From the NCBI RefSeq assembly GCF_000003815.2, contig NC_049980.1, positions 11,400,192 to 11,464,191 of the forward strand: DNA of 64,000 bases. The letters are read 5' to 3'. Positions 20,190-64,000 of the stretch are shown piece after piece; position 1 is the first letter of the stretch, and every line of letters begins with the position of its first letter. The notes beneath the pieces were generated by a model. It made no database searches. It was not told the origin of the DNA and saw only the letters and a list, made by a program, of their open reading frames with translations. The stretch comes from Branchiostoma floridae. Lineage: Eukaryota; Chordata; Leptocardii; Amphioxiformes; Branchiostomatidae. A program made the position numbers and the translations under genes.

Positions 20190-20592
20190 ATTGCAGGATT
20201 TTCCTACAACTACTGCAGGATGTTCCTTCAACTACTGCAGGGTGCACCTACAACTACTGCAGGATGTTCCTACAACTACTGCAGGGTGTTCCTACAACTA
20301 CTGCAGGATGTTCCTACAACTACTGCAGGGTGTTCCTACAACCACTGCAGGATGTTCCTACAACTACTGCAGGATGTTCCTACAACTACTGCAGGATGTT
20401 CCTACAACTACTGCAGGATGTTCGTACTATTATTGCAGAATGTTCCTACAACTACTGCAGGATGTTCGTACTATTATTGCAGAATGTTCCTACTGTTATT
20501 GCAGGATGTTCCTACAACCACTGCAAAATGTTCTTAGCTAGAACTACTGTGGGAGGTTCTTACAGCAACTGCGGGATGTCCTTACAACTGCA
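20190..20592 (+). repeat. 22-bp minisatellite containing PstI sites
   Basis: About 16 copies of AGGATGTTCCTACAACTACTGC. Most copies contain CTGCAG, and the right end decays (TATTATTGCAG, then GCAACTGCGGGA). Because 22 is not a multiple of three and the unit has no stop in this orientation, all three plus frames stay open for 120-150 codons, each encoding the same 22-residue cycle in a different register. I read this as non-coding. Confidence 0.9.
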
Positions 20593-43605: not shown

Positions 43606-44668
43606 ATACAGTAGAATTAATGTAATTATAGTCTCTTAATTACGTTATCTTCAACCTTACACAAGTGTGTGGAGTGCCAATCGTGAGTGACGTATTACCC
43701 TAGAATTCACAAACTTTTGGGAGCGGTTTAACTCCTTCTCTCGGCCAACTCCCTTGCCGGGATCCCCGGCATAGAGAACTTTATAACTAGCCCATGTTGA
43801 AAATCCCGAATCAGCGCTCCCAAAATAAACACCACCGCTCTGAATGTCTGTAATGGAGACTAGCATTACCCCACTCAGGTGAAGTACTTGTCATAAAAAA
43901 ATCCTATAGGACGGACTGAGACTCAATTTAGTACATTTAGGCCATCACTGGCAAGCTAATCAACAAATAAACAGATTAATTAGTACTTGGATTATAAAGG
44001 TAATGTTGTATGGCGTATTGAGAAGATTAGGATCCTCCCATGACATACAAGACTTGCTTTTGAAATAAGCAGTAACATTTTAAAGGGTATTTTTAGTAGC
44101 TGTAAGGAACGTGCGTCAGCATACATGTCAGATTTGACATACAACCCGCTGTTCTGTCGCTTATGGTGTTGACATATCATGGCCGTTACGTGACAGAACC
44201 ACTCCTAACTTGACTTTTGTCCGATGCATGAGATGGTCTGCCAAACGTCTTATATCAATATACCTACAGACGTGCTGTCACACCTTAAAACGTATTAGTC
44301 AGCGTACAAGGGGTCCCTTGGTTCTATTTGTTTACAAAATATGTCACTTTTGATCATTGTTTATTTGCTGACAGAAAAGATTAACTTTCATAACGACTAA
44401 ATTAATACACAGAGCTGCCTTTCTCTGTGTGATATTTTTTATACGGAATATGGCAAGCCTATACATGACGTTGGCAAGAAATGTCCAACAAACATTGCAT
44501 TCAGAACTACAGGTGAGGCGAAAAATAAACAGCACCACCTATTTGCCTGCTACTTCAGAATCGACTTCCCCTTGCGTACCGTCATAAAGAATGTGGAATG
44601 TCGGCGACGCCCTTGGTACTTTGTGTACTTTGAAAGGTGTAGCCAGTGTAGAAGTGACGTCTGGCTTT
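43606..44668. other. Spacer upstream of the mucin-like cluster, no gene seen
   Basis: No supported gene. This is the distal promoter region of gene A and part of the divergent spacer with the SLC17 gene. Confidence 0.4.
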
Positions 44669-45065
44669 GGGTGCAACTACTGAACACTCACAGAGCGAGA
44701 GAGGCCCTTCGTAATACTAGTGCTGTTATCATTTGCTGTGTAAAATGGCATCGTTAAGTCTGGCGAAATTGTTGACTGTGGTCTTTCTATGGGGATTAGT
44801 CAGCGGTTCAACAACATTAACACCGACTGGCAGTACAGGTACGTAGTTGCTTTGTTTTCACTTCTAACTTCGGGTGAAACTAGCGAACACCCGCAGAGCG
44901 AGATAGGCCCTTTCTCATAGTGCTGTTATCATTTGCTGTATGAAATGGCAACGTTACGTCTAGCGAAGTTGTTGATGGTGGTCTTTCTGCCGGGACTAGT
45001 ATGCGGTACAACAACCTTAACACCGAGCGGCAGTACAGGTACATAATTTACTTTCCTTCACGCCA
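44669..45065 (+). repeat. Tandem duplication (about 200 bp unit) carrying a signal-peptide exon
   Basis: Two adjacent units (from 44669 and from 44872) share leader, ATG, signal-peptide codons, donor and the start of the intron. The ATGs are exactly 200 bp apart and both exons are 94 nt. The copies differ by scattered substitutions and small indels. Confidence 0.9.
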
Positions 45066-47841
45066 TGGATAGAGGAAGTGAAACCTGTATAGAATCCGGA
45101 GCCTTCTGTATATGTTCCAGCGTCTTATTCTGCCAGTGTTGAGAATGTGCAGTACGTTGCACTGATGTTTTAAACCAAAAGTTGTTTTAAAGTTGCGCTA
45201 GCTATAGCTGTCCGTTAGTGGGTACAAATCTATCAATATTTTCAGTACACGAACATGTTTACTTAGTAAACAGGGGATCGGATTCGCGAAAAAACACGAG
45301 TCACCTTTGGAAGAACCTGAAAACCAACGTCCACCGGCAAAACTGAAAAAAAAGCGGAATTTTCACCATGTAAAGCATGATATTAATTCGATCTATGAAG
45401 ATCAACCCGAAACAGAGAAACATGCAACGATACATTCCTAATAATCATCTAATAATGATTGTAAAGTGCCTCTGGACTTCACGACTGCACAGCGCTGGTC
45501 TGGCTAAAGCCTGTCTGTTGAGACCTGTCGTCTATAGCGGCAGTTCGGTCCCTCGAGTGGTCGTTTTGACAGGTTTGTAGGCAGAATTTGCAAGCGCTGA
45601 AACCGCACTGCAACACAAACATCGTAACTGTAGAATGTAGAGGGGTACGTCATGTGTCAGGAATGGCAACGTTGGGACACTTTTGTCCAAGGCACGATAT
45701 ACATAATATACTATGACGTCTGGTAACGCAAACGGATGTTGTCTACTATGCTAGTACTGTCATTGAAACTGGTAAATATCATTCTAACTTCAGGTGTAAT
45801 GACAACATCTGTGGGTGAAATGACGACAGCAGTAGGTGGCACAACGACAGCAACCGGTAGCGCAACGACAGCAGCAGGTGAAATGACGACAGCAGCAGGT
45901 GGCGCAACGACAGCAGCAGGTGGAATGACGACAGCAGCAGGTGGCGCAACGACAGCAGCAGGTGGAATGACGACAGTAGTAGGTGGCACAACGACAGCAA
46001 CAGGTGGCGCAACGACAACAGAGGGTGGAATGACGACAGCAGCAGGTGGCGCAACGACAGCAGCAGGTGGCGTAACGACAGCAGCAGGTGGCACAACGAC
46101 AGCAGCAGGTGGCGCAACGATAACAGCAGGTGGCGCAACGACAGCTGCAGGTGGCGCAACGACAGCAGCAGGTGGAATGACGACAGTAGTAGGTGGCACA
46201 ACGACAGCAACAGGTGGCGCAACGACAACAGAGGGTGGAATGACGACAGCAGCAGGTGGCGCAACGACAGCAGCAGGTGGCGTAACGACAGCAGCAGGTG
46301 GCACAACGACAGCAGCAGGTGGCGCAACGATAACAGCAGGTGGCGCAACGACAGCTGCAGGTGGCGCAACGACAGCAGCAGGTGACACAACGACAGCAGC
46401 AGGTGGCGCAACGACAGCAACAGGTGGCGCGACGACAACAGAGGGTGGACTGACGACAGCAGCAGGTGGCGCAACGACAGCAACAGGTGGCGCAACGACA
46501 ACAGAGGGTGGACTGACGACAGCAGCAGGTGGACTGACGACAGCAGCAGGTGGCGCAACGACAGCAGCAGGTGGCGCAACGACAGCAGCAGGTGGCACAA
46601 CGACAGCAGCAGGTGGCGCAACGATAACAGCAGGTGGCGCAACGACAGCTGCAGGCGACGCAACGACAGCAGCAGGGGGCGCAACGACAGCAGCAGGCGA
46701 CGCAACGACAGCAGCAGGTAGCGCAACGACAGCAGCAGTGGGCGCAACGACAGCAGCAGGTGGAATGACAACTCAGCCAGGTACATTTTAGAGCACGAGA
46801 AAACTGGCTACGATTATGAACATTATAAGTAAATAGTAAATATCTTAGGTATGAATATCTATAGATAGGCGTACAAAATTTGCGGAAAAAATATCTGTCA
46901 AACACACATTACCATTACATCCGAGCTAGCAAGCCAATGGCTCCAGCAAGGGAATCAGTTACATAGCTCTTCCAAATAGGTTTTGCTAGAATTCATATCG
47001 TCCAGTGTATGCACAGAAGAGTTCAATATACAACAGCAACTGATGCTGCTACTTACTTAGCCATACATGTGTTAAAACATTTCAACAGAGTCTACCACAG
47101 ACCAAGAGGGCGTAAGCAGCTCTCCCCAGGTCGATGAGCAGACGATCATCATCATCGCGGTTGTGGTGGCGGCCTCCGTACTTGTACTGGTGCTCGCGGT
47201 GACCGGGATAATTGTGTACATGCGCCGACATAACAAGTAAGTAAGACAACGTAGATAGCTCTATATTAGCATGGGTTTCAGCCTGTGAAAGTGAACTGAC
47301 GGAACATCTCTGGCTGTGGTGAAAATATTTGGATTGAATATTTTTCCGGACTTCATGTGAGCCTGTGCTTCAAAGCAGTCATTTATTGACCCTTTAATAA
47401 ACGTTACATGAAGAGAACTTTATTGCACGATAATTGTACACGGTACAATATATGGCAACAACTTTTGCACAAAGTACAAAATAAAGGTATAGAATAACGC
47501 TTAACATCTTAGTTAACATAGCAATAAGAACTAACATCATTTTGATATAGTATTACAAAAGAGTGGGCTAATCATTAGTATCAGTATTCCTTCTAAAGTC
47601 TGGTCTCTGATAGTTTGATCTCTGATAGTAAGATCCGACTGTGACAGAATGTTGGACATAATTTTCATAAAAACCCTTAATGAATTCAAAGTTACTTTTT
47701 TATAAATTATATGTGCATCCTTATACATTCATATTTCTGTTCCTGTTTGTATGTAACCCATAAACACTTTTATTGATACATAATCATTTTTTCAGGAGCG
47801 CCACCTTGTCATCTTCAAACGTTGAGTTGGCCCAGCGGTGA
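44745..47841 (+). CDS. Mucin-like single-pass membrane protein A with heptad VNTR
   Basis: Exons 44745-44838, 45794-46780, 47089-47236, 47796-47841 give 1275 nt, or 424 residues. Intron phases are 1, 1, 2. The signal peptide MASLSLAKLLTVVFLWGLVS is followed by a stalk (33-360) of about 45 copies of the heptad ATTAAGG, with three of every seven residues Thr or near it. This stalk would be heavily O-glycosylated. Next come a short linker, one helix (about 379-404, TIIIIAVVVAASVLVLVLAV), a basic stop-transfer YMRRHNK and a 14-residue tail ending NVELAQR. There is no enzymatic domain. It is probably a cell-surface mucin or glycocalyx component. It heads the array of related genes B-E; the phase pattern and the 46-nt last exon are shared with B and C. 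The first exon could be replaced by its duplicate (next entry). No ortholog can be named. Confidence 0.85.
44945..45038 (+). CDS. Duplicate (alternative) first exon of gene A
   Basis: It encodes MATLRLAKLLMVVFLPGLVC and then GTTTLTPSGST, with the same phase-1 donor (ACAG|GTAC) as the first copy. It can splice in frame to the repeat exon at 45794. An upstream out-of-frame ATG at 44940 overlaps its start (seven codons, then TAG), which may lower initiation; the first copy has TAA in that place. It may be an alternative promoter/exon, or a relic. Confidence 0.6.
45794..46780 (+). repeat. 21-bp coding minisatellite (gene A stalk)
   Basis: The unit is GCAACGACAGCAGCAGGTGGC, with variants changing Ala to Met, Thr, Val or Leu at position 1 and AA to AT, TE or TA. 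The 210-bp block 45961-46170 is repeated without a single difference at 46171-46380. Antisense and shifted frames are also open because the unit lacks stops. Confidence 0.95.
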
Positions 47842-49453
47842 AAGTAGATTAGCAGCAGCCGGCATCTAATTTTAGCCCGACAGTTGGAAACGTTTATAGT
47901 CTGTACAATCAAATTTATGCACATATAAATGACAATACTTTCCTCAAAATGTTGTCCAAGGCCAGCTTAGAAAACTGACCAATTCTAACTAGAACTACAT
48001 CTATTTGTGATAAAGTTCTAAAGAGATACCAGTGTTTAGCTTTTAGGACTCAAACTAGAACTATTTATTATTCTTTTGTACCTTATCTAAGTGAGTACTG
48101 TAAATGCATCTATAAAATGTTTTGGGCATTGGTGATTTTGAAATGCTTCAAATTTGGGCGAATTTTTCTTACTTCAAGTTTTTTTTTGCATGGAGATTGT
48201 TATCATCATAAAAGATGACAAAAGATTAAAAGACAGCCGTCTTAAACTTTTCATTGTATCTTTATGAAAAGACAGACAATTGTTTTCTTTGGTATACACG
48301 TGTAAGTCATAGAAGCATAAAACCAAATATCTAATCAAATGAGAAGGAGAATATTACCCAGGTATAGGTCAGTAACATTTAAAAAAAAAGCGTTGCTGCG
48401 CTTGATAAAGGCACTTGCCGCATGCGAACAAATTGTCTGTGGCAGTATCTTAGCATACATAAACTAAGAGGTATTTCTTCTGCATCAAGATTGTAAAAGA
48501 CGTCGACAGGCGATCTGATGATAGATATAACCCGGGTTATATAATGATTGCATTATCTGTAAATTCTCTGTTGACGTCGGCCTACATGGATGTTATAATT
48601 CTACTTGGCATCCTTAAGTTTGCATTTACATGTACACAATTCGCTAGGTTCATACTCACTGTTTTCAATTTAAAGAATGATCTCAGATAATGGGAGAAAA
48701 CTATGTCTTGTTCCAGAAACACCAGCACAATTTGTGGTTCAGGGTAGTTAGTAACTATAGCAATGGCATGTAGATTCGTATCTATAAATAAAGTACACAT
48801 AATCATGCCTAACTCTTGCAAGGCCATATTTCCTGTGAGCAAATACTCGATTAGTAGTCCAAGATGTTTTCTTCAAATCAATATGAGTTCGAGTAATAAT
48901 TTATACACTATTAGAATTGGTTATTGCACAAATTAAGACAGCTATTCTCGTAAGATGACTAAGTCTGATACACTCTTCGCACTCTAACAAACATGCACAT
49001 TTCCATCCTCAACATTCATATTTATATGAAAAAAATGCAGCGTTAAATGTTTCGGTAAATATGCAGAATCGTAAGCACCAGGGTAGTACGTTACTCGTTA
49101 GTGTACAGAATACAATATAATAAAGACTTTTTTCTATATCCACGGAAAGTAACAATGGCGTTATGCCTTCAATTTATATTCTACAACCGGTTAACCGTCC
49201 ATGCTTAGAGACTCAATCACAACCAATTATTTTGATTCATCAGTCCTTAAATTAAGGTGATCTGCCGCACGCACGTATACGAAGGCCCTTAGCAACGCTT
49301 AATATAATGATGTCCACAATTTGGTTGCTATGGCGATGGACGTAAGCCATCATGAAAGCACGTTGGTTGCTAATGAAATTCAATATAAATGCCTGTGGCA
49401 TTTTGGAGATCTGAAAAGGTTTTACAGAAGTAATTGGGAACCAAGCAGTAAGG
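47842..49453. other. 3' flank of gene A and spacer to gene B
   Basis: AT-rich. It contains the presumed 3' UTR of A. No canonical AATAAA was seen near the stop, and no further exon. Confidence 0.45.
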
Positions 49454-52158
49454 ATGTACTGGACATTATGCTGCGTTTTATCTATTGTTGCTGTGCAGAG
49501 CACAGCATTTTCTACTCCTAACCCTCCTGGACAGAACACAACATCACCTGACGCTAACGTTACCGTGGCTAACGTCATCGCTACGACGGCAACAGACGGA
49601 GAGACAATGCCGCCAGGTAAGACAAGTCTGCTCATGCTCATCTCTCATCCGTCAGCGCACCACCGTTATCTTGCAGATGTTTTTGGAAAAATACTGTAAG
49701 TTTGATTTTTACACACTTTTGATAGATAAAATCGAGTAACGTGTTCTTGACCTGTCCTTGGTGCTGAAAAGTTATCATCTGAGTACTGCATGTAATAACC
49801 TCAAAATAAATTGTATTAGTTTCTGGAATCAAGAGCTACATTCACTGTTGAATTTTTGTATTGAAAGAGTACAACTATGGGGCTTGTCCCTGGTGCTGAA
49901 AAATCATCATATGGGTACCAACTTACAGTTTCTGGATTTTTTTCTACATTGTAATGTGAGCTCTTACGTATGTGCTTTTGGGGAAAATGACAAGATTGAC
50001 TGAGCATGTGTCCAAACACTTACTCGTAGTTAATGACCATTCTTTGAATTTTGCATGTTTTCAGCATAAATCATATATTTGCATGATATGTATTTGAATA
50101 CGTTGACTTTTTATCTGTTCCAGATGTACTTACAAGTATCCTGAGTTCAGGGGCCATTGCTGGTATGTTATTGTATGAAACCCGTATTAAGACCTATGAG
50201 AAAAAAAATTTGTCTGGTTACAGTCCTGAAAAATTCTCCTTTGTTCCTTTTTTAATTGACGGTAGATTCTAACCAAAGTAATGGAATAGACACAGTTGTA
50301 CAATGTCAAAGTAAAATGCACCAGGAAAAGGGTACATTCAACAACATCATATTGTAATTATATAAATATGACTTGTATAAAATGAAAGAAATACAAGCCT
50401 TACATCAAATATTCAAAGCCGCTTTCTGCTCATAGACTGTGAAGTACAGACTGTTGAAGAACCTTTGAGTCCCTTTGTTTATCAAATTTCAGATCAGAAG
50501 TGTCATGTCGCTTGCCGGCAGTAAATCCAAGACCCTGAAATAGGGCCAGGGTCGGTAGGCTTTTGTCAGGATTGGTCGGGTAGCCGGAAACATTACTGTA
50601 TAACAAAAGTTGTCGACATTGCAAATTCTGAGATAAATAACATCAATAAAAGATCAAGTAGTATTTTCAAGAAATCCTTCAAAATATGGTAGATCTTTCT
50701 AAAATCTAATTTATCACATATTTGAATGTAAGTTTTATCAGCCCGGAGAGTATGANNNNNNNNNNNNNNNNNNNNNNNNNNNNNNNNNNNNNNNNNNNNN
50801 NNNNNNNNNNNNNNNNNNNNNNNNNNNNNNNNNNNNNNNNNNNNNNNNNNNNNNNNNNNNNNNNNNNNNNNNNNNNNNNNNNNNNNNNNNNNNNNNNNNN
50901 NNNNNNNNNNNNNNNNNNNNNNNNNNNNNNNNNNNNNNNNNNNNNNNNNNNNNNNNNNNNNNNNNNNNNNNNNNNNNNNNNNNNNNNNNNNNNNNNNNNN
51001 NNNNNNNNNNNNNNNNNNNNNNNNNNNNNNNNNNNNNNNNNNNNNNNNNNNNNNNNNNNNNNNNNNNNNNNNNNNNNNNNNNNNNNNNNNNNNNNNNNNN
51101 NNNNNNNNNNNNNNNNNNNNNNNNNNNNNNNNNNNNNNNNNNNNNNNNNNNNNNNNNNNNNNNNNNNNNNNNNNNNNNNNNNNNNNNNNNNNNNNNNNNN
51201 NNNNNNNNNNNNNNNNNNNNNNNNNNNNNNNNNNNNNNNNNNNNNNNNNNNNNNNNNNNNNNNNNNNNNNNNNNNNNNNNNNNNNNNNNNNNNNNNNNNN
51301 NNNNNNNNNNNNNNNNNNNNNNNNNNNNNNNNNNNNNNNNNNNNNNNNNNNNNNNNNNNNNNNNNNNNNNNNNNNNNNNNNNNNNNNNNNNNNNNNNNNN
51401 NNNNNNNNNNNNNNNNNNNNNNNNNNNNNNNNNNNNNNNNNNNNNNNNNNNNNNNNNNNNNNNNNNNNNNNNNNNNNNNNNNNNNNNNNNNNNNNNNNNN
51501 NNNNNNNNNNNNNNNNNNNNNGTCGGATGTATGAATTTTGATTTGGTTCAGTTCAACTTGATCAGAAGACTGATCTAAATCTTGTTGGTAAACGCTTAGT
51601 TTTGTGTACGGATAGTTATAATTCTTAAAAATGTAACATTATCACATATTCATTTCCTCAGGAATAGCGGTCGGTAGCGTGGCAGGAGTGGCGCTGATGA
51701 TTGTAGGAGTCATCGTGTGTGTCTTCATGTGTGTGACGGCGTGTACCAAGAACAGGTCAGAGGTCATCGCGTTTGAAATGAACCCTTTCTACTTATAACA
51801 AATAAGTGTTTTGTTAAAGAAAACTAAATAATGGGTTCACGCAAAGAGCGTCGCAAAAAAGATATAGAAGATTTTATCTTATTGATCATAAGAGCTTCAA
51901 TCTTTATACATGTCTGTGTGCTTGCCAGAAACCCATATATTGATATGGCAGATACATTTTATAATTTTGAGTTGTAACTGATATGAAATTGTAAGAAACG
52001 CATTTACAGTAGCTGGTCAATCGGTTTATGTATACTAGCTTGATTGACGTTTAAAGTGTACGAAATCACCTTTATGATACCTGTATTAATGAACAAATGT
52101 AATCATTTACAGGCAAGTGTCACCGAGGACGTCTGCAGTGAACTTGGGCGATGTGTAA
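49454..52158 (+). CDS. Mucin-like single-pass membrane protein B (interrupted by assembly gap)
   Basis: Visible exons 49454-49616, 50124-50162, 51662-51755 and 52113-52158 join in phases 1, 1, 2 to 342 nt, or 113 residues. The signal peptide is MYWTLCCVLSIVAVQSTA, followed by a short Thr/Asn-rich ectodomain with sequons NTT and NVT, and a 13-residue linker exon. One helix (about 66-93) has small-residue GxxxG-type spacing (GIAVGSVAGVALMIVG) and several cysteines. The tail is RQVSPRTSAVNLGDV. The last coding exon is 46 nt, like A and C. A 766-base run of N lies in the intron between the second and third exons. Because both flanking junctions are phase 1, a symmetric stalk exon could be hidden there, so the true protein may be longer. 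Confidence 0.7.
50756..51521. other. Assembly gap (766 N)
   Basis: Unsequenced bases inside the third intron of gene B as modelled. The content is unknown. Confidence 0.99.
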
Positions 52159-54689
52159 CAGCATCAGCCTTCGTCACAAAAATCGTTGATTGCAAACCCT
52201 TCTGACAAGTAGTTGCAAAAACGATGGTAACATAACTCAAAACCTGTTGTTTTATCAATTGTAGTGGCCTAAATGTACATTTTTAATGTTCCATAGGGAA
52301 GTCGTAATCGTTTTTCGTTGATACCAGATTAGTACGTTCAAACATCATCAGGGCTTATATGTGGGAATATGACGGCTAGGGAGCTAAGGACACATACCAA
52401 TTAGACTTCGACTCCAACTCTTTCGGATGCACCCTGAACCCTATGCGTTTGACATACACTACTCGTATAATGGAATCTTGGTATGTCATCGATGGTAAAA
52501 ACAACAGCACATTTTGAACAGTTCAGTTATCTTATACGTATATCATTGAATTTGTGGGAAGATGTCAATGAGGCTCCCAAGAAAAGTTATGATTACCGCA
52601 TTTTATTGCTGTGCCTGTTTGTAGATAGATGCAGGTGGACAGTAGGACAATGAGAACATGAATTTGGAAGTTAAAGCATGTACCATGCAGCTGTAAAAGT
52701 GTGGCCGAGACAAAGTAAAGCAATGTTGATTATTCAGCAACTCATGAATGCACTGTTGTTTTATTTTCTTTTGCAGGGTTGTTCTATTTTTTTTGGGGGG
52801 GGGGGGGGGGTCATGCCAGTCACTTACTTATGTNNNNNNNNNNNNNNNNNNNNNNNNNNNNNNNNNNNNNNNNNNNNNNNNNNNNNNNNNNNNNNNNNNN
52901 NNNNNNNNNNNNNNNNNNNNNNNNNNNNNNNNNNNNNNNNNNNNNNNNNNNNNNNNNNNNNNNNNNNNNNNNNNNNNNNNNNNNNNNNNNNNNNNNNNNN
53001 NNNNNNNNNNNNNNNNNNNNNNNNNNNNNNNNNNNNNNNNNNNNNNNNNNNNNNNNNNNNNNNNNNNNNNNNNNNNNNNNNNNNNNNNNNNNNNNNNNNN
53101 NNNNNNNNNNNNNNNNNNNNNNNNNNNNNNNNNNNNNNNNNNNNNNNNNNNNNNNNNNNNNNNNNNNNNNNNNNNNNNNNNNNNNNNNNNNNNNNNNNNN
53201 NNNNNNNNNNNNNNNNNNNNNNNNNNNNNNNNNNNNNNNNNNNNNNNNNNNNNNNNNNNNNNNNNNNNNNNNNNNNNNNNNNNNNNNNNNNNNNNNNNNN
53301 NNNNNNNNNNNNNNNNNNNNNNNNNNNNNNNNNNNNNNNNNNNNNNNNNNNNNNNNNNNNNNNNNNNNNNNNNNNNNNNNNNNNNNNNNNNNNNNNNNNN
53401 NNNNNNNNNNNNNNNNNNNNNNNNNNNNNNNNNNNNNNNNNNNNNNNNNNNNNNNNNNNNNNNNNNNNNNNNNNNNNNNNNNNNNNNNNNNNNNNNNNNN
53501 NNNNNNNNNNNNNNNNNNNNNNNNNNNNNGGTCATTTACGTCGATGGAGGTCAGACATTTAGGTGATGATATACACCAAAAAGCCGAGTTACTCCAGCAA
53601 CTGGGTATAATTTTCGAAAGGGTCATTTAGTTGAAAAAAAAAACACCTTTGGAGATGATTGTTGATTTTTAAGCAAGTGAGGAGTTTTAAAAAGATCTGA
53701 GGAGGAGTAAGTGTCATTACTAAGGGATCAAAGATATAACGTGTTATTTGCTTAAGTTGTAGTGCCTAAATAGAAGCACACAACGACTACTGCACATCTA
53801 TGAATATTGACGTATGATTTATAGCATAGATTTTTAACCTAATAAGACTGGAGTGCATGTACTATATTCAGATACCTTAAGTTGATTTATTATCGTGACC
53901 TAAATGTAAAGCAGGTCAGCTATCTACATTCTTGAAGAGTTCATCAGTTGCATAGCTACTGCATCAGTGTATCAGTGTAATGGTGATGATATAGTGTGAC
54001 TTCCGGCAAAACTGGCAAACACGAGCTCGTATGTACGTATACGTAGTCAGTAGCGTCGGTGCACAAATCACATTTCGGGGCATTATTATTAAGTACAAAT
54101 CTTTCAATGAATGTCTACAAAAATTACTTTCCATGTGACACCACCTTTATTATTATCATATTAAACCTTAGATGAGAGAGAAAGAAAAACATTGAGCTGT
54201 GACCTAAGGTGTGCGAGTCAGCTTGCTATGCTGGCTTCTTTCTAGTTGATATACGAATGAAATCCTAATCAAACATTTTGACAATGTCTTCAAAGATTTC
54301 ATGGCACGATCCACAGCTTATCCTTGTTTTCTCTCGTCAATTAACGTTACATATTTCATTTGAAAAAAAGATGTTTACTGAAAAATAATCGGACCTTGAT
54401 GAAATTGGTAGATATTGATCAAAAGCTTTCTACTTATTTTTGATAACTATACCCCGAAATTTGAGTTGTGTGGTTTATTTTTAGCGTGAAGTCACCAACA
54501 CCTGACTTTTCGCTGTACGGTAGTGTCATAGCAACTAGGGCGGTGGTCTACAATTGTGTGAAGGTTACGACACATAAGCGTACACGTGAAAGATGTCATT
54601 AGATTGATTCATCTCTGCGGTGGGTCTAATATGGAGCTTACATATGGCGTAACTCGGGGGCAACTTTGATATTTTCCCTGCAAATGCAA
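52159..54689. other. 3' flank of gene B and spacer to gene C, with a second gap
   Basis: No exon recognised. A run of Ts and about 17 Gs (52788-52810) comes just before the N block at 52834, so the sequence stalled at a homopolymer. The gap could hide coding sequence. Confidence 0.45.
52834..53529. other. Assembly gap (696 N)
   Basis: Unsequenced bases between genes B and C, preceded by a poly-G tract. All open frames running through it are artefacts. Confidence 0.99.
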
Positions 54690-54874
54690 ATGAATGTCAT
54701 CCCATGCCATAGTTACCATCGAAGATACCGCTGTTTTTGACAAACAGATTAGTGGCCACAGGTCAACAATACGGTGGGGTTGTATGCTCAAAACATGTGA
54801 CATCCACCATTATATGTCGCCAGTCACAGTATAGGACATCGTTTGAGATAGACTCTACAGAACGAGTCTTAAAG

Positions 54875-55565
54875 ATGATGTCCTCCACGTGCACAGTGTT
54901 CATGTTGATTTGTGCGTTGTCCACTTCTAGTGCACAGTTCGGCTTCGGTACTAAGCCCCCGTCTCCATCGACGCCACTGATAGTACTCACGACCACTGTT
55001 TCCACTCCGAATTCGAAGTTGCCGACTACTTCAGCCGACCAGCTGACAACCACACAACAGGAAGAAACTACACTACCTGGGCTAACAACCGAAATCGGTA
55101 CCCCTGAAGCGGAGACTGCCACGGTTACAGCGCCTCCTGGTACTGAGAGTACCACGGACTACAGCAGTCCTTCTATACAGGGGTTACAGGCATGGGAAAT
55201 CGCTCTTATTGCAGCCGGGGCGAGTCTGGCCGGAATACTCGTCATTGCAGCAGTTGGATACGGTATCTACAAAGCATGTAGGAAACGTAAAAGGTGTGTC
55301 TACTGTATGGTACATAACATGCATTTTTTTAGTACACGCTAACGTTGTTTTGATGTGGATATTTATAATTTAGATGGCTCCAAAATGGACAAGTTACAGT
55401 TTCAGTGAGACGTTAAACCATCACAGTAACATTTTTGTCCTTGTAAGAACGAAAAAGAAAAATGAATTTTATGTACATTCCCTACTATTGCGTCCATTAA
55501 TGTTGAAATTATCCTGCAGGGCCCGAGTCGGTTCCCAGCATGAGATGGAGTCACATGGAGAATGA
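54875..55565 (+). CDS. Mucin-like single-pass membrane protein C
   Basis: Exons 54875-55293 and 55520-55565 (phase 2) encode 154 residues. The start (MMSSTCTVFMLICALSTSSA) was chosen because it gives a signal peptide and aligns with gene D's start; longer in-frame ATGs lie upstream but are not conserved. A Thr/Pro/Ser-rich stalk (about 25-105) is followed by SSPSIQGLQAWEIALIA and one helix (about 107-132). Next is the basic juxtamembrane CRKRKRAR, of the kind that binds ERM proteins in other sialomucins (inference), and a tail HEMESHGE. Relative to D the stalk is about 200 residues shorter and the tail stops early at a TGA, after which D-like tail codons continue in frame. It is a tandem paralogue of D. 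Confidence 0.8.
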
Positions 55566-56675
55566 CAGCAGAGTGGCTCCAGACAGCAGCTGTCCTCGTC
55601 TGCTTCAGGTCAATGAACTGTACAGACATCACTGAATAGTACACGATTTGAACAAAAATAAGACGGCTACTCCATGTCTGTAACATGTAATATACGTGAT
55701 GAGGGCTTTTTATATGTCGATTAGACGACGCTTTAAATCTTACGATTTAGTTGTTGTGCTATATCTTGAGTTGCTTGACATTGTTTAGTGCCATGTGATG
55801 TGACGTGTTATCTGCACGTGATTGACAGGCAGCAAGGAGCCATGGCTCAGCTGAGCACACAAACGTGTACTGTATAACGCATCAATCAGTGGGATTTTAA
55901 TCAGACACTCAAGTCCGATGACTAACGGGAGGTTAAGAGCTGGATCCCTGCCGTTATTACACGTGGGACCAGTTGAGGAAAACTTTAAAACTTACAACAC
56001 CGGTTACCGCATCACTAGTCATACGCTAACGGGCTCGTCAATGAGACGTCGCCAAAAGCTTTGCGTTCATTATTACAAGGGCAGGGTTGCTAACTTGGTG
56101 ACAGAGTATACGCAACATTATATATAGATAAATACTAGATAGATGTGACGAAGAATTAATGTAAAAATTGATCAACTTTTCTATAATCATTTATTTTCCA
56201 AATCACTGTACCTACTTTTGTGTGTCTATAGTTGTAGAAGACCATACGAAAGTACCTGTACTTTTGTTGCGACAATAAAAAGTTAGTCTTTATGTAACAA
56301 TGGGAAGACGATTTTGAATACAGCATGCGAATTTAGAGTAAAATATACCATATCGTGGCAGTTAAAGTCAGATTTCAACGCTTACAATTTATATTCATCT
56401 GACAAGGCGAGTTCTTAACATTTATTTTCGATTAAGTTTTAACTTTTTTCTAAGGAAAAAAATAATCTTGCTACTGTAGCTATAGAACCTAATCACATTC
56501 ATTTATTACAGGCAGTTGAAAAGCACTCACAGACACAGCTATGTTATATATGGCAAGCGTCTGTGCTGCCTTCAGACCGACTTTGCAGAAATATTTCCGT
56601 GGTTTCAATAGCGAGAAGACCTTTCATTGTACATCCTTGTCCCAATGGGATAAGCAAAGGTTATGTGTTAACAAT

Positions 56676-56701
56676 CGTGTACATATACATATACATATAC
56701 G

Positions 56702-56779
<78 letters not shown>

Positions 56780-56870
56780 TATACACATGCACATGCACAT
56801 GCACATGCACATGCACATGCACATGCACATGCACATGCACTTGCACACGCACATGCACATGCACATGCAC

Positions 56871-56901
<31 letters not shown>

Positions 56902-56905
56902 TACT
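56676..56905 (+). repeat. Compound hexanucleotide microsatellite (ACATAT / ACACAT / GCACAT)
   Basis: Blocks of ACATAT, then ACACAT, then GCACAT (about 13 units), then ACACAT again. It lies in the 3' flank of gene C. It is open in several frames because the units lack stops. Alternating purine-pyrimidine throughout, so Z-DNA-prone. Confidence 0.95.
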
Positions 56906-57220
56906 CTCTTCTTGGAAATGGCATAAATGTAGTACAGCAGGCTGTATGATTAGTTAGACTTAAAGCTGGTTTATCGAGGGCTGTAATGAATATTAAGATC
57001 TTATGTATGTTAACGTTACTTAACTTTGCGGGAGGCCCATGGCACGGATCCCAAGGCCAGGCAAACTATCCGCATCAGCGTGCAAACACGCGAGCTAAGG
57101 AGAGAGCGAACTTTAGCCTGGGAGCAAATCAACTGATAAGAAGTCCATTGTTTTGCTGACTGCAGGTGCATGCACTTTTTGAAATAGTCGCTAGATGTCT
57201 CTAGATTTTTGCGTGTATCC

Positions 57221-58479
57221 GTCATTGCATCCAAATCAGAGACGCGCTCACTGCTTCATACGTGTAGCTATCAGTAGACATGATATGACACGACACGATG
57301 CTCGAACATATCTTAATGAATTTCAGACTGCATGTAACTTTTTCTCTGGAAATTTTGTTTCAAAATGACATCTGTAGTTTCCATATGGACCGTGAAGAGA
57401 AATTCAAATTTGACATGCATTTCCCAGAAATTGGATATGTGCGTCATACAGGAGTTTGTATAGCTCATACGGGTTAGTTTGGACAGGCTTTATGATGATA
57501 ACGTGAAAGGGGCATTCTACAACAGATGGGAGTGATATCTTCCGGTTAATATTAATTTTAGGAAGTAATAAATGCATACTACTTCACATTATACGATAAA
57601 GCACCCATTAGCCCCACGCGCATCAAAAATGATTCAGTCTTCTAGTAGACTCCCCAATTACCCTAGCCTCTAATCAATCTAAGCCTATGGGTGAATACGT
57701 AATGTACTTGACAATGCCAGACTTAAGTTAGGTTACAATACTAATTTCAGGAGCGCTAAGCAAAACTCTTCTTGTTCGGTGTTCTTTGATATCTACTGAG
57801 CAATTAATTGGCCTTCTCGGTGTGCTTAGCGCTCCTCAGATCATGCATTCCAAAAATATGCACGATAAACGAAGTGTCTATATGCATAGAGAATGCAAGG
57901 GTAGGGTCTGTATGGGTTTAGGGAGTGCCATGTTATTTCACAATACAGACATCGCGTAATTCACCATAAGTGGAATCCCGCAAAAGGTCGGCTGATTATG
58001 TATTAATTGATACGTTATCTATTGAAAAATAACACTCCCTTCTGGAGTGGAATGCCTTTTTAATGACCCGTCTATTCCTCGGTGTTTACGCTGTACGGCA
58101 TATACACATCGGGTTGGCTCATTAACTCTTAATCAAATGGGTGATTATATTACCTTTTAATCACAAGACAAATGCAAAGAGTATGTTTTTCTTATCAGTG
58201 TTTTTGTGTGCATGGAAATGTGTAGGCTGAGTGTGTTTGAGTGGCTTGATACAACGGAGGAAATAAATTAGATAAAGAGATGGCTAGCATTCTTCTGTAT
58301 GAACGACCATATATGTTTGATACATGTTCCTGTATATGTGTACTATGGCAACAGGATGGTGTTGTAAAAATTGTATGAAGGATATGACATCGTGCTTGTG
58401 ACAGATACCACGTGATTGATGTATGGAGAGGAGGAATACACCGCGTACACAGTCGCTGGGCAGTGATGGTGATATTTCC
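57221..58479. other. Spacer between the C and D duplication units
   Basis: No gene seen. It contains the inverted repeat at 57749-57836. Confidence 0.45.
57749..57836. repeat. Perfect 14-bp inverted repeat
   Basis: AGGAGCGCTAAGCA faces TGCTTAGCGCTCCT across 60 nt. It may be the ends of a tiny MITE or a stem-loop. Confidence 0.7.
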
Positions 58480-58572
58480 ATTAGCAACACAAATAGATAC
58501 CGCTTCACGCCATAGTTACAGTTGAAGATATCGCTGTTTTCGACAAACACTGTGGTTACCACGGGTGAACAG

Positions 58573-58580
58573 TATAAAAG
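58573..58580 (+). promoter_or_regulatory. TATA box of gene D (TATAAAAG)
   Basis: A canonical TATAAAAG sits 112 bp before the ATG, predicting transcription start near 58605. The homologous position in gene C (about 54768-54776) reads CAATACGGTGG, so the box is lost or was gained after duplication. Confidence 0.65.
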
Positions 58581-58684
58581 GGTTGTACATCCCAGATAAA
58601 TAAGATAACGTCGGATATTCCATCTTGCTAGAGGGACAGTGCTACAAGCTGTTTAAGATGGGCACCAATCCTAGGCGTTTAAAG

Positions 58685-60112
58685 ATGGTCACGTTGACAG
58701 TTTTTGTTTTCTTGTGTGCGTTGTCTATGTCAATTTCGAGTGCACAGAGTACATTCTCTTCTCCAGCGACCGCCCAAACCATCCCTGTCGCTACCACTTT
58801 GAATTCATCAACTTCTCCGGGGCCTACAGCTGCCAACACAACTTTACCAGGTAAAGTAACGTCACCCCCTAGGTGTCCTGCATTTTTTTGTTGTTGTTTG
58901 CATCAACCTCTAGTTTTTCCTTCTGTGTGACAGTATTTCTAACAAAAAGAATCTGTTTTGAATTGTAAAAACATCAGCGATGACGGCGACCACTGTATCC
59001 TTGCCGCAATTGCCGACGTCTTCTTCTTCAGCGGAACAATCGACAAATACGCCACAGGACAAGTCTACGGCAGGAGGATCACCTACAGCACTGCTCTTGA
59101 CTACCGTACAAGATGAAAGTACAACACAGAACTCAACTACATCACAGAGTGAAACTACAACATGGGGCTCACCTACCGCACAAGATGAAAGTACAACACT
59201 GGACTCAACTACAACACAACCGACTGAAACTACAACATGGGACTCATCTACAGTACTAGATGAAAGTACCGTGGCACAGGACTCAAGTACAACACAGGAC
59301 TCAACTACAACACAGGACTCAACTACAGCAGAAGATGAGAGTACCTCAACTACAACACAAAGTAAAACCACAACATGGGACTCAACTACAACACGGAGCG
59401 AGACTACAACATCGGTCCCAACTATAACAAAGAGTGAGGCTGCAACATGGGAGTCAACTACGGCACGGCATGATGAAGCTACAACACAGGACTCAATTAC
59501 AGCTCATGAATCAACTGCAACGCCGGCTGGTACTACAGCAAGGGACTCAACTACAGCATCAAGTGGAACTACAACATGGGGTCCAACTACAACACTGGCT
59601 GAAAGAACATCACAGGGGGCAGCTACAGCACAGGCGGAAACCACTCCACATGGCGAAACTACACAACGGAAATCAACTACACCGAGTACCGAGACCGACA
59701 CAGTCACAGTTCCACCTGGTACTGCGAGTACCACGGGTTACAGTAGTCCCTCTGTGCCAGGGTTGCAGACCTGGGAGATCGCTCTTATCGCTGTGAGCGC
59801 AAGTCTGGGTGGGATACTCATCATTGCAGGCTCGGCGTTTGGTATCTACAAAGCACTTGGAAAACGTAAAAGGTGTGTCTTCTATACTTCTTACTACTTC
59901 TATGTAACTTTGTTGTATGTTTCTGTCCATGTAGATTAGTATCAAATCATATTTGCGTCACAAACGTCAAACGTAAAAAGATGCTTATGGGGTGTTTATA
60001 TATCATCTGCAGCGCCCGTGTCAGTTTCGAACATGAGATGGAATCGCAAGAAGATCAGCAGCGGAGGGCCAGCTCTGGACAGCAGCTATCCTCGCCAGCT
60101 TCAAATTACTGA
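58685..60112 (+). CDS. Mucin-like single-pass membrane protein D
   Basis: Exons 58685-58850, 58978-59872 and 60013-60112 (phases 1 and 2) give 1161 nt, or 386 residues. The start MVTLTVFVFLCALSMSISSA aligns with gene C's signal peptide. The stalk (about 25-310) is dense in Thr/Ser with recurring DSTT, ETTTW and QDEST phrases, typical of O-glycosylated mucin domains. The membrane-proximal VPPGTASTTGYSSPSVPGLQ and the helix (about 321-346, WEIALIAVSASLGGILIIAG) are close to C. The basic KRKS juxtamembrane is followed by a 32-residue tail (HEMESQEDQQRRASS.. ending SSPASNY). The last coding exon is longer than in A-C because the early stop of C is absent. It is preceded by a TATA box. It is a tandem paralogue of C with a stalk expanded about threefold. 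Confidence 0.88.
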
Positions 60113-62022
60113 ACTGTCTGCAGTTCGCCCTGAAAGACAAGACAAATTGAACAAATAGTAAGATCAGATTTGTCAAGGACATGATATACCAGTGAGAGTA
60201 AATAGTTTGTAAATTTGACAATTGGATTGTTACTATTATATATAAAGTTATTCAGCATTGTTAAGTTGTCAGGAATTATGACATCTTATCTATGTTTTGA
60301 TTGACAGGCCAGTAGGACGCTCGGACTAATCCATGCGTACACATACATGTTTATCAAACAACATATCAATCACATCAGGTTTTTAATGAGAGTCTTAATT
60401 ACGATCATTAATGATACTTTGAGTGTGCATTGATTGAATCACATCCATTAAGTAGGATTAGATGAAGAAGCCAATATGAACGGAAATGACTCATTTGTAA
60501 AACCTGGAATTTGCAATGATAAGGGCTGAGATAGTACCAAATTATGTAAAGATTTGTATTCATATAACGTTACTGTTAGGTAGATAGATTGGTCGATTTG
60601 CATTAGTTGTGATAATTGAGCTATTTCTTCTGATACTGGACCCATTAAACAATATATGCAATCATTAAAACGTCTACATGTCAGCAATATGTAATGTCAA
60701 AAGCTCATCATTTGTCTTATCTTTGTAACAATGGATATTAAAGAGAAGTGGAGGGAACATTCATGGAAAATTATTCACGACGTCTATGTTGTATCACTGT
60801 TTTAAATTTGTAAAAATAGCACTGGTTACATATAGTGACATTGTTATTAATGTTCATGTACACAACTCCTATTGTTGTCCATATTTGTGGAACGCCCAAC
60901 CCAACGCATCTCAAGGCTAAGTAAACTTGCTTTGCACATCAGTATATACACACAAGCGATTGGCAGAGGGAGAACTGTAACCAATAAACAAATTAACTGA
61001 TAAAAAGTCCATTAAACACGTTGACCTGGAGGTATCTGGAGTTTCCGAAGTCCTCGCCATAGGTCTCTTGTGTAAAAAAAAAAAAAGAAGTCAAACACAA
61101 CCTGTTTAGAAATAGCCAACACTAGTATTAGATTAGAATATTGTTTATGACTGTCCATTGTCACTATGTGTATACCATGTACTTGCAATTAGCCCTCGGG
61201 CACGAACTTGCAAATAAACTTCTATTTGTTGTTTTTTTCCTTTTTTTTCAGATACTATATTACACTTTCGTGCATGCAGATGTAACTCAAAGTACATGTA
61301 TGTCAACTGATTCATTGTTGCATCTGATGACAAAACTAGATGTGATAAATGCGAACAGTTAATCCACTGGTAACTATTGAGTCCACAAAGAAACCATTAT
61401 TGTAAAGTAGCAGTAGATATGTGTATATTGTCCTTCACAACAAAGCACTGTAAATTAAATTGTGCCTGTACTTTTGAAATATGTCGCCAGATGTCGCTTC
61501 ACTAATATACACATTTCTTTTGACGTAGCTTCTTACCGCTTGACTTGCGTGAGCGACCCGGTGCAGGTACGACCAACATGAAAACAAACAGGAAGAATAT
61601 TGCATGGAGGCTCGGCCTTTTCTGAAGCAGGGCAAATATTGTTTAACAGAAGAAACCCATTAGCAATCTAGCATTGTCTCTATAAACCTTTCGGTACATC
61701 AAACAGACTATCGATGTATTTAATTGCTCACATGGAATTGTTTGACCAGGAAAAAATAAAAAATAAAGAATTAAGAAGTCGTGTCTTGATGAGCCTCACA
61801 AATCTAAATTACCGCGATCGCATTCTCGTGTGTTTATGAAATTTCAGTGTACTGTAAAGACACATTGTTCAGATGCGGATGAGGAAATAACTGGATTTCT
61901 ACAGCTGTATATGCCTATTCGTTATTGATCGGTTAAACGCCGATGAAAGAACGGAAGAACGGAAGAAGAAGTATTGACACGGTTCGAACCCCGGTCGCAG
62001 GGTTTGTTTTTCAGCTGGCGTT
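60113..62022. other. 3' flank of gene D and spacer to gene E
   Basis: It includes the duplicated 3' flank to about 61500. An A-rich run lies at 61073-61087. No exon was recognised. Confidence 0.45.
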
Positions 62023-62030
62023 TATAAATA
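62023..62030 (+). promoter_or_regulatory. TATA box candidate of gene E (TATAAATA)
   Basis: It lies 136 bp upstream of the gene E ATG. Start would fall near 62055, and a four-codon upstream frame (ATGGTCGAGTGA, about 62081) would lie in the leader. Confidence 0.5.
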
Positions 62031-62165
62031 TACATATGCATAGATCAGCAGAAGGTGGTGACAGAATAAATTGTCTCAAAATATGGTCGAGTGAGCAACG
62101 TACTGAATCAAGACGGCGTGTTGTCTGCTCTCGAGGAAAGAGTTTTAGGAAAGATTGGTACAACG

Positions 62166-64000
62166 ATGAAGCTTTGCGCATATTGGAAGCTACTGTTGCT
62201 GTGGTGCTCGGTTTGTAACGGGCAGACTACAACAGAAGTCACAGCACTTGCCACCACCAACGATACTACATGGAGCCTCACGTCTGGGACAACGTGGGAA
62301 CCGACAACAGAAACCATAACTGTGACGGGCATATCCACCACCGACGCAACATATGCCCCTGGCTCTAATACCTTCCCCATTCCTGCTCAAACCACCCCAA
62401 CGACAAATGTAACTGATAACGGAACGACGGATGGCAACAACACGGCCGCTACTACAACAGTTGGCACCACCAGTGATACAACGGTGGAACTGACAACCAT
62501 TCTCGATACAACGGCAAACCCAACCGAAGCTGCTACGTCCTTTCTGACCACCCCAGTCAGAAATGTAACTGACAACGGAACGACGGATGGTAACAGCACG
62601 GCCGCTGCTACAACAGTTGGCACCACCGAAAATACAACTGTTCAATTGACAGCCATTCCCGATACAACGGCAAACCTAACTGAAGCTACCACGTCCTTTA
62701 CCAATGCCGCTTCAAGTTCACCCGGGCCCAATCTTACCACCCCAGTGGCAAACGTAACTGATAACGGAACGACGTATGGTAACTATACGGTTGCTAATAC
62801 TACAACATTCGGCACCACCGATAGTACAACAGTTGAATTGCAATTGACAACCATTTCTGATACAACGGAAAACCCGACCGAAGCGACCACGTCCTTTTTC
62901 AATGCCCCTCCAAGTTCAAACGGGTTCATTCTTACCACCCCAGTAGCAAACGTAACTGATAACGGAACGACGGATAGTGACTATACCACTGACACTACCT
63001 CAGTTGATACCACCGATAATACAACTGTGGAACTGACAACCATTCCCGATACAACGGGGGAAGCAACCGAAGCGGCCACGTCCTTAACCCATGTCGCTTC
63101 AAGTCCACCCATGCTGTCCAATACAACGACAAATGCAACTGGCAACGGGACAACGGGTGGTAACAATACTGCCCCAACAACCACCATAGCAGTAGGTACC
63201 AACGACAGTACAACTTGGAGCAACACCACTAATGGTTCATTGACTACTTGGGAATCAACGTCGCCCATGATCAACACAGCGACACCTGTTGATTCTTCGG
63301 TATCAACTTTTCCGAACGAAACAACACCAACTGATTATGGGACAACGACTGGAGACATAACAAGCGCAGCTGATAATACTTCAACAACGTGGGCCTCTAC
63401 GACCGTCTTCGGTGTAACGTCAAACGAAACCACGACAGACATGTCCTACACCGACACCACATCGGACACAGAAAACACAACATCTGTCACTGACACCTGG
63501 TCTTCGGAATCAACTCTGCCGGGCGACCCAACGACAGAAGCAACTGCATATGAAACGACGGATTGGAGCACGGCAACCGAAGCCGCAGAACCTGAAACAA
63601 CATTTGACACTCCGCCAAACACCATCACAGCAGCTATGACCACAAATGTTACAACAGACACGATTATCAGCACAGCAGAAGTTAACACCGTCACTGGGGA
63701 TGGTATCACATCGGTATATACCAACGGATCTGAAACAACAGACCTACACATGACAACAGTGAACGTACCTACACCGACTCCAAATCCTGTTATGACAGCA
63801 GTGACCACAGAGATTACAACGGACACGACTGACAACACAACAGTCAGTACAACCAACGAAACTATCACGGTCCCTACTTCATATGAAACAGCAACCCCGA
63901 TTACAACACCGACTGAACCTAAAACAACATTGTCTGCTACATTTGAAACAACGCCCCCAGAAGCAACGCCTTACACACCTGAAACAACACCTTCAGAAAC
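62166..64000 (+). CDS. Mucin-like protein E, 5' part (runs off the window)
   Basis: I translated this frame by hand from 62166. It stays open for 611 codons to the window edge with no stop. The signal peptide is MKLCAYWKLLLLWCSVCNG, then QTTTEVTALATT and an extracellular region dominated by Thr, with Asn, Asp, Glu and Pro. The first 330 residues hold five diverged repeats of 52-66 residues starting NVTDNGTT, with many N-glycosylation sequons (NVT, NGT, NNT, NTT). After about residue 400 the pattern changes to ETT/PETT-type phrases. No membrane segment is reached, so membrane anchorage as in A-D is only inferred. Unlike A, B and D, the signal peptide and stalk share one exon, as in C. It is larger and more N-glycosylated than A-D. 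Confidence 0.85.
   Translation, partial: MKLCAYWKLLLLWCSVCNGQTTTEVTALATTNDTTWSLTSGTTWEPTTETITVTGISTTDATYAPGSNTFPIPAQTTPTTNVTDNGTTDGNNTAATTTVGTTSDTTVELTTILDTTANPTEAATSFLTTPVRNVTDNGTTDGNSTAAATTVGTTENTTVQLTAIPDTTANLTEATTSFTNAASSSPGPNLTTPVANVTDNGTTYGNYTVANTTTFGTTDSTTVELQLTTISDTTENPTEATTSFFNAPPSSNGFILTTPVANVTDNGTTDSDYTTDTTSVDTTDNTTVELTTIPDTTGEATEAATSLTHVASSPPMLSNTTTNATGNGTTGGNNTAPTTTIAVGTNDSTTWSNTTNGSLTTWESTSPMINTATPVDSSVSTFPNETTPTDYGTTTGDITSAADNTSTTWASTTVFGVTSNETTTDMSYTDTTSDTENTTSVTDTWSSESTLPGDPTTEATAYETTDWSTATEAAEPETTFDTPPNTITAAMTTNVTTDTIISTAEVNTVTGDGITSVYTNGSETTDLHMTTVNVPTPTPNPVMTAVTTEITTDTTDNTTVSTTNETITVPTSYETATPITTPTEPKTTLSATFETTPPEATPYTPETTPSE
62406..63190 (+). repeat. Diverged coding repeats in gene E (NVTDNGTT units)
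   Basis: Units begin at 62406, 62562, 62751, 62949 and 63132, giving lengths of 156, 189, 198 and 183 nt, all in frame. Each contains NVTDNGTT (NATGNGTT in the last) followed by a VGTT/VDTT phrase and, in most, ELTTI and a TEA..TS segment. The divergence contrasts with the homogenised gene A array. Confidence 0.85.

Follow-up and report, generated by a model that had tools for sequence, protein, structure and literature searches.

The small sialomucins, among them CD34/podocalyxin and PARM-1, are built from a signal peptide, an O-glycosylated stalk, a helix and a short tail. MUC21 and MUC22 are membrane mucins that lack a SEA domain and consist of a Thr/Ser repeat stalk, one helix and a short tail, the repeat of MUC21 being 15 residues long. 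A PTS region, as defined in the mucin literature, holds at least 40% Ser plus Thr and at least 5% Pro over 100 residues. According to the available part of a published account, MUC21 and MUC22 both lie at 6p21.33 (PMC12245684). For the vertebrate MUC3 cluster (MUC3A, MUC3B, MUC12 and MUC17), the accessible text of the source describes a PTS exon with higher divergence and repeat expansion (PMC9578598). The available portion of another study names mucin-1 as fastest-evolving, in a comparison that was made in fish and not in amphioxus (PMC5787515). Among the best-ranked matches in open-licence literature, titles and abstract openings contained no lancelet membrane-mucin array.

Here, we describe eight tandem mucin-like genes of a lancelet, A to H, which all lie on the + strand within about 38 kb and were modelled from the sequence only. 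The first-pass annotation of the window, which is the whole 64-kb stretch of DNA that was analysed, had counted at least five such genes. This count was exceeded, as three further genes (F, G and H, strand +) follow 3' of E, beyond the window end. We conclude that the eight genes probably form a tandem cluster encoding mucin-like glycoproteins of type I, each anchored in the membrane by a single pass, and that this cluster would have grown by local duplication with conservation of the anchor. It resembles MUC21 and MUC22 in its general layout of Thr/Ser stalk, helix and short tail, and the 15-residue unit of F recalls that of MUC21, but no kinship is claimed. The array also has the layout of the small sialomucins, from which it differs in that the Pfam CD34_antigen and PARM scores are far under their cut-offs. 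The nearest functional parallel is the MUC3 cluster, which in the available text likewise comprises tandem membrane-tethered mucin genes with a fast-diverging stalk or PTS exon (PMC9578598); unlike that cluster, the lancelet array has no detected SEA domain. The same text reports a class I PDZ motif for the MUC3 cluster (PMC9578598), whereas the tails of the array are short and revealed no common C-terminal PDZ motif by inspection.

Gene models and extent of the array

The region surveyed covered 264 kb, namely the 64-kb window, which spans 11400192-11464191 of contig C2, and 100 kb on each side. All seven complete models (A–D and F–H) have GT/AG sites and a frame that closes on exactly one stop. 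By hydropathy and composition, each of the seven has the layout of a tethered mucin, with a signal-type hydrophobic N-terminus, a Thr-rich or Ser/Thr-rich stalk (short in B), a dominant hydrophobic anchor representing the single helix, a basic stop-transfer and a cytoplasmic tail. The long helix of B was scored as two adjacent 19-mers in the hydropathy analysis.

Gene A begins with a signal-peptide exon at 44745..44838 (ATG, 94 nt, gtacgt donor, phase 1), and a second copy of this exon, its frame and donor intact, lies at 44945..45038. The stalk exon of MTTAAGG-type heptads (45794..46780; 987 nt, phase 1 to 1) has a 21-nt period with 44.8 copies. It is followed by a transmembrane exon (47089..47236; 148 nt, AG/GT, ending in phase 2) and a last coding exon of 46 nt (47796..47841), for a modelled product of 424 aa. 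Aligned over 192 bp, upstream sequence included, the two copies (44657-44848 and 44860-45048) show 81% identity. Both keep the ATG, the frame and the donor, and their 16 differences give a pN of 0.125 against a pS of 0.30. Gene A likely has two alternative first exons, judging from these intact copies.

In the final model of gene B, a signal-peptide and short stalk exon with a phase-1 donor (49454..49616) is followed by an optional exon of 39 nt (50124..50162; phase 1 to 1), without which the frame closes too. The transmembrane exon (51662..51755) ends in phase 2 and the last coding exon (52113..52158) is 46 nt, giving a modelled product of 113 aa. Gene C, which is paralogous to D, encodes signal peptide, stalk and helix in a single exon of 419 nt (54875..55293). 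Its last coding exon (55520..55565) runs for 46 nt to an in-frame TGA, behind which the frame stays open to a stop at 55614-55616; the modelled product is 154 aa. Gene D has a signal-peptide exon with a phase-1 donor (58658..58850), an exon for a stalk of DSTT phrases and the transmembrane segment that ends in phase 2 (58978..59872), and a last coding exon of 100 nt (60013..60112), for 395 aa in the model. The phase-1 donors that had been proposed after the signal exons of A, B and D thus recur in the final models.

The signal peptide and stalk of E (62166..64000) contain repeats of 156 and 198 nt and are open to the window end. The unbroken frame from 62166 spans at least 611 codons with 33% Thr; the next 1471 bases past the window are N, so that the frame enters N and a helix would lie outside the sequence read. 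A candidate last exon of E starts at 65870 in window coordinates. In coordinates extended beyond the window, F comprises 68202-71485 and 71885-72017 (1138 aa), and its first exon sits in a 1,100-codon stop-free frame made up largely of 15-residue units. Gene G comprises 74261-74339, 74594-74839, 75780-75917, 76238-76319 and 76550-76616 (203 aa), and H comprises 80612-80708, 80927-81157, 81669-81915 and 82453-82525 (215 aa). Five genes (A, B, D, G and H) have the first intron, whereas C and F lack it and in E it was not seen. At five of nine starts examined (B, D, E, G and H), a TATAWAW motif precedes the ATG by 70-143 bp, a modest excess over the expected 0.23 per 300 bp.

A scan for T/S-rich frames over the 264 kb returned 27 frames. 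Those outside the array genes were mostly His-Thr, Tyr-Thr or similar simple repeats, plus a few unassigned frames (e.g. at -98475 and 145692), and one frame was antisense to the helix exon of A. No further gene of the array layout was recognised among the T/S-rich frames of this region. Downstream of the array, two WSC exons were confirmed. One of the listed frames, at 153315, opens with a Thr/Ser-rich stretch, flanked by an exon that looked WSC-like by eye and by a helix at 153971, and continues into simple repeats; it had no Pfam match. Since the Thr/Ser-rich stretch precedes a helix, such stalks are not confined to the array. Upstream, the minus-strand frames at 35919, 36550 and 41047 had no Pfam match at E up to 0.01. 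One of these three frames matched sialin structures.

Composition and domain searches

The stalks contain 28-45% Ser plus Thr; that of A is rich in Thr, Ala and Gly with 1% Pro, and that of B is only about 49 residues long. When the 40% and 5% thresholds for PTS regions were applied, with stalks of fewer than 100 residues (B, C, G and H) scored whole, four of the eight stalks (D, E, F and G) reached both values, and those of A, B, C and H did not.

No Pfam family was found at the curated cut-off in B, C, D, G and H whole, the anchors of A and F, the stalk of A, the E fragment or the long exon of F. The SEA domain in particular had no match at E up to 1 in B, C, D, G, H and the anchors of A and F, nor at E up to 0.1 in the A stalk, the E fragment and the long F exon. 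Likewise, Pfam gave no match to the VWD and cystine-knot domains of gel-forming mucins, and a helix is present. Several candidates under the curated cut-offs were rejected. CD34_antigen had a single match, to the anchor of A (E 0.076, 13.4 bits, cut-off 26.3), and PARM matched B at E 0.12, far under its curated cut-off. The anchor of A also matched a plant Cys-rich domain (E 0.00018) and DUF3377 (E 0.00065), G matched WBP-1, and B matched VSP and CYYR1. The sub-cut-off matches in parts of A, B, C and G fall mostly on the helix, and a PDB search with the Cys, transmembrane and tail parts of G gave mostly matches of helix type (best E 0.013). From these results and the gene layout, a lineage-restricted membrane-mucin cluster that lacks SEA domains is the most likely class for the predicted products.

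Last-exon length and junction phase

Two features had been taken to mark the array as one family, a final coding exon of exactly 46 nt and a phase-2 junction after the basic stop-transfer. The 46 nt were measured in A, B and C as claimed, but the last coding exons of D, F, G and H are 100, 133, 67 and 73 nt long. All seven lengths are 1 mod 3 because of the phase-2 junction. In C, the in-frame TGA relative to D is followed by 16 open codons that lead to the same TGAACTG as in D, with a net difference of 3 nt. The tail exons of C and D align past the stop of C, whose 46 nt represent a shortened D-like exon. The tails of A and B are no more similar than shuffles. We therefore rejected the 46-nt exon as a family mark, because the length varies over the array and that of C is cut by a TGA.

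The phase-2 junction itself was confirmed in A-D. A scan for a helix, a basic cluster and a donor in all three phases and on both strands of the 264 kb gave 13 phase-2 matches, every one of them on the + strand. These matches were A, C, D, F, G and H, five further helix-coding stretches downstream and two low-complexity repeats. On the + strand, phase 0 yielded one match and phase 1 two, all of which were decoys located at C and D; the minus strand yielded no match in either phase. Gene B was missed by this final scan and found at another donor in a looser one (24 matches on the + strand and six on the minus strand before donor filtering). As five helix-coding stretches outside the array have the same phase, the junction was rejected as a mark of the family too, and both diagnostic features are coincidental or generic.

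Similarity of the helices was likewise rejected as proof of kinship, since array pairs score no higher than pairs of an array helix with a downstream receptor helix; apart from C/D, helix-only scores do not separate the two kinds of pair. Helix A compared with the downstream helix at 140126 gave p 0.0002, B giving p 0.0015 in that comparison, and within the array B-H and G-H reached p 0.0016 and 0.007. These scores raise the question of whether the array arose from the WSC-type receptor genes nearby, which would have lost their ectodomain and acquired spreading Thr-rich repeats while retaining the exon pair for transmembrane segment and tail. Such an origin would agree with the shared strand and phase-2 junction, with the two WSC exons and with the Thr/Ser-rich stretch before the helix at 153971. 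We nevertheless regard it as very unlikely. The link consists of helix composition, with p below 0.02 in nine of the 35 helix pairs tested, and behind the helix at 153971 the frame extends much further.

Anchor and stalk in the C/D pair

Genes C and D have diverged in a way that points to conservation of the anchor. Over 70 aligned codons of the juxtamembrane region, helix and tail, pN is 0.153 and pS is 0.514, giving a dN/dS of 0.20. At the DNA level, identity is 76.5% in the 3' part of the transmembrane exon with its donor, 74.8% over 111 bp of the tail exon and 75.6% upstream of the genes (54703-54784 and 58506-58587). A search of the own genome (513 Mb in 431 contigs), in which scoring was limited to the best candidates so that distant relatives might escape, returned D (E 3.6e-32) and C (E 3.1e-20) for the anchor of D. 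The next best match, on C12 (E 0.43), was rejected, as its open frame also contains other extracellular sequence, which we take to be CLCA-like. By their codons and flanking DNA, C and D form a clear duplicate pair with a conserved anchor.

The stalk repeats give a different picture. The ratio corresponding to dN/dS is 1.05 between adjacent copies and 0.95 over all pairs for the 45 heptads of A, and 0.76 and 1.02 for F, where 12 of the 45 units, those matching the reference unit in register, were compared. Gene conversion and unequal crossing-over among copies make these ratios rough; at that precision, the stalk repeats of A and F evolve near-neutrally. The proposal of the first-pass annotation that the anchor is kept while the stalk is free to change is thus supported for C/D, and its extension to the other genes is an extrapolation.

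The in-frame TGA that cuts the tail of C relative to D, and the stalk of B with its few residues, could also indicate that some members, above all these two, are decaying or non-functional copies. For C, such decay would have to be reconciled with an open frame, good splice sites, the low dN/dS of the anchor and a frame that is still open behind the TGA, and we consider decay unlikely.

Relationships among the other genes

When the six-cysteine exon of G was compared with the whole genome, only two candidates appeared, G and H (E 0.16, 39%). Weak as this E-value is, the one other match, H, is located about 6 kb away; the reverse search of the genome with the longer exon of H returned neither G nor B. 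The tail starts of B, G and H are alike in a junction-anchored permutation test (p 0.0002 over 13 residues, 0.0004 over 9). Those of D, E and F are weakly alike (p 0.005 over 13 residues, 0.07 over 9), with values of 0.025 and 0.31 after addition of A. Nine sets of tails were tested, among them B, D, F, G and H together (p 0.12 over 13 residues). All eight tails taken together gave p 0.0004; omission of C or of D changed this to 0.023 or 0.002 over 13 residues and to 0.06 or 0.007 over 9.

Whole anchors were compared by segment-wise shuffling (500 shuffles each, floor p 0.002) in the 21 pairs of seven genes (A-D and F-H). The pairs B-H, G-H, C-D and C-H reached p 0.002, followed by B-G (0.004), D-F (0.008), A-C (0.01), C-G (0.018), D-H (0.028) and F-H (0.048). 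The remaining 11 pairs were above p 0.09, including A-B (0.48), A-D (0.12), B-D (0.20) and A-H (0.69). Transmembrane and tail exons without detectable similarity had been set beforehand as grounds for refuting a single family, and the anchors of A-B, A-D and B-D, which do not exceed their shuffles, come close to that outcome. One family for all members, as proposed at first, is therefore borne out in parts: strongly for C/D, by a common module for G/H and moderately by the tails of B, G and H, but not by those three anchor pairs.

Among the 21 stalk pairs of A, C, D, E, F, G and H, A-H and C-D reached the floor of 200 shuffles (p 0.005), where the slice of C holds some conserved juxtamembrane sequence. 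They were followed by D-E (0.01), C-F (0.03), E-G (0.035) and A-D (0.045), and all others were at 0.06 or above. The DNA match between the repeats of A and H is 67-75% over 91-150 bp. Contrary to the first statement that the stalks share almost no sequence, those of C and D are alike, as to a lesser degree are those of A and H. Searches of the genome with the stalks of H and E returned at E up to 0.01 only H itself, among 10 candidates and without A, and only E itself. The anchors of A, B and F returned no other array member and that of D returned C alone, and none of the anchor or module searches with A, B, D, F, G and H gave an off-locus match better than E 0.045. Gene A appears only weakly tied to the rest, through the stalk repeats of H and not through its anchor.

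These comparisons leave real room for a different explanation, in which membrane genes from two or three groups unrelated to one another (C/D, perhaps with E and F; G/H with B; and A) became neighbours and resemble each other through the generic layout of a type I membrane protein with a Thr-rich stalk. The anchors of A, B and D that do not rise above shuffles, the genome searches in which array members fail to find one another, and the phase-2 junction and helix similarity held in common with the downstream receptor helices would all be expected if the groups were unrelated. The failure of the H stalk to return A led us to raise our estimate for this explanation slightly, and it stands as a substantial, though minority, possibility. 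It would, however, have to explain why eight such genes lie on one strand within 38 kb when no further gene with their layout was recognised over the 264 kb. It would also have to account for the weak links C-H, D-F and A-C among the anchors and A-H among the stalks. We favour a cluster grown by local duplication. Duplication is evident from the alignments for C/D and for the signal exon of A and has good support for G/H; it is likely to connect B with G/H and is possible for the rest. Descent of all eight from one gene is plausible on these comparisons. By sequence, the array of membrane mucin-like genes is real and larger than first described, with common ancestry supported for parts of it only.

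Predicted product and biological meaning

In the favoured reading of a membrane-mucin cluster, the signal peptide would direct each product into the secretory pathway. The Thr-rich stalk would be heavily O-glycosylated and stand off the cell surface, and one helix with its basic stop-transfer would hold the product in place, the short cytoplasmic tail serving as a minor handle. Stalk exons would diverge and change length by repeat turnover while the anchor is conserved, so that stalk length and glycan density may be tunable properties. The products may coat epithelial cells, for instance those of the gut, pharynx or endostyle, with tethered glycans and so shield the membrane from particles and microbes. 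We infer expression, glycosylation, location and this barrier role, as well as the anchor of E. In lancelets, as described in the accessible text of the source, food is transported by mucus nets from the endostyle, and the gut through which it passes has a chitinous membrane (PMC6109156), which makes an epithelial coat of the pharynx or gut a reasonable place to look.

A bolder reading would see a coat locus restricted to lancelets, with a selected anchor and near-neutral stalk turnover, that began from the neighbouring receptor genes as an independent chordate counterpart of the MUC3 cluster, and in which a read-through stop in C would add a second D-like tail. We judge this combination to be distinctly unlikely and retain the simpler reading of a membrane-mucin cluster grown by local duplication.

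As the comparisons made here indicate, a gene family is only weakly supported when the evidence consists of exon length and intron phase alone. The pairs C/D and G/H offer a natural comparison of a conserved anchor and a free stalk at one locus. If the array is indeed a cluster of membrane mucins without SEA domains, it would reveal by what means an epithelial coat can be tethered in a non-vertebrate chordate.

Tail and cysteine module within the array

In gene C, 16 codons stay open behind the TGA, up to the same stop that is used by gene D, its duplicate (window 55563-55616). This open stretch may represent either read-through or a recent truncation. Genes G and H, which lie beyond the end of the window, each contain a six-cysteine module adjoining the helix (L003:1780-1917 and L003:7669-7915, in a piece of the downstream flank). 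The two modules have a DANCTC stretch in common, and a Pfam search with them gave no match at the cut-off.

Sequences flanking the array

Directly upstream of the array, a coding sequence resembling sialin and VGLUT (SLC17) occupies window 35919-41418 on the minus strand. Its frame 36550-36906 matched sialin structures at E 1.2e-8; Pfam yielded no match at E up to 0.01 for this frame and two adjoining frames. Elsewhere in the window, a 22-nt tandem repeat (17.9 copies, 20192-20589) lies inside a 153-codon open frame, and CTAACC is repeated 27.8 times at 1800-1966, which is 11.4 Mb into a 35-Mb contig; this unit is the telomere repeat CCCTAA in circularly permuted form.

Downstream, about 70-97 kb past the window end and on the same strand as the array, Pfam detected two WSC-domain exons exceeding the cut-off and one SRCR-like exon slightly below it (flank pieces L009:453-965, L009:8373-8852 and L011:6833-7090). 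The downstream flank also contains, at L010:9315-L011:867 (window coordinates 153315-154867), a Thr/Ser-rich stretch with a helix behind it at 153971; farther along comes a frame in which tyrosine motifs of the YATVQDDP kind recur, as read by eye. Together, the stretch, helix and tyrosine-motif frame probably constitute a single receptor gene.
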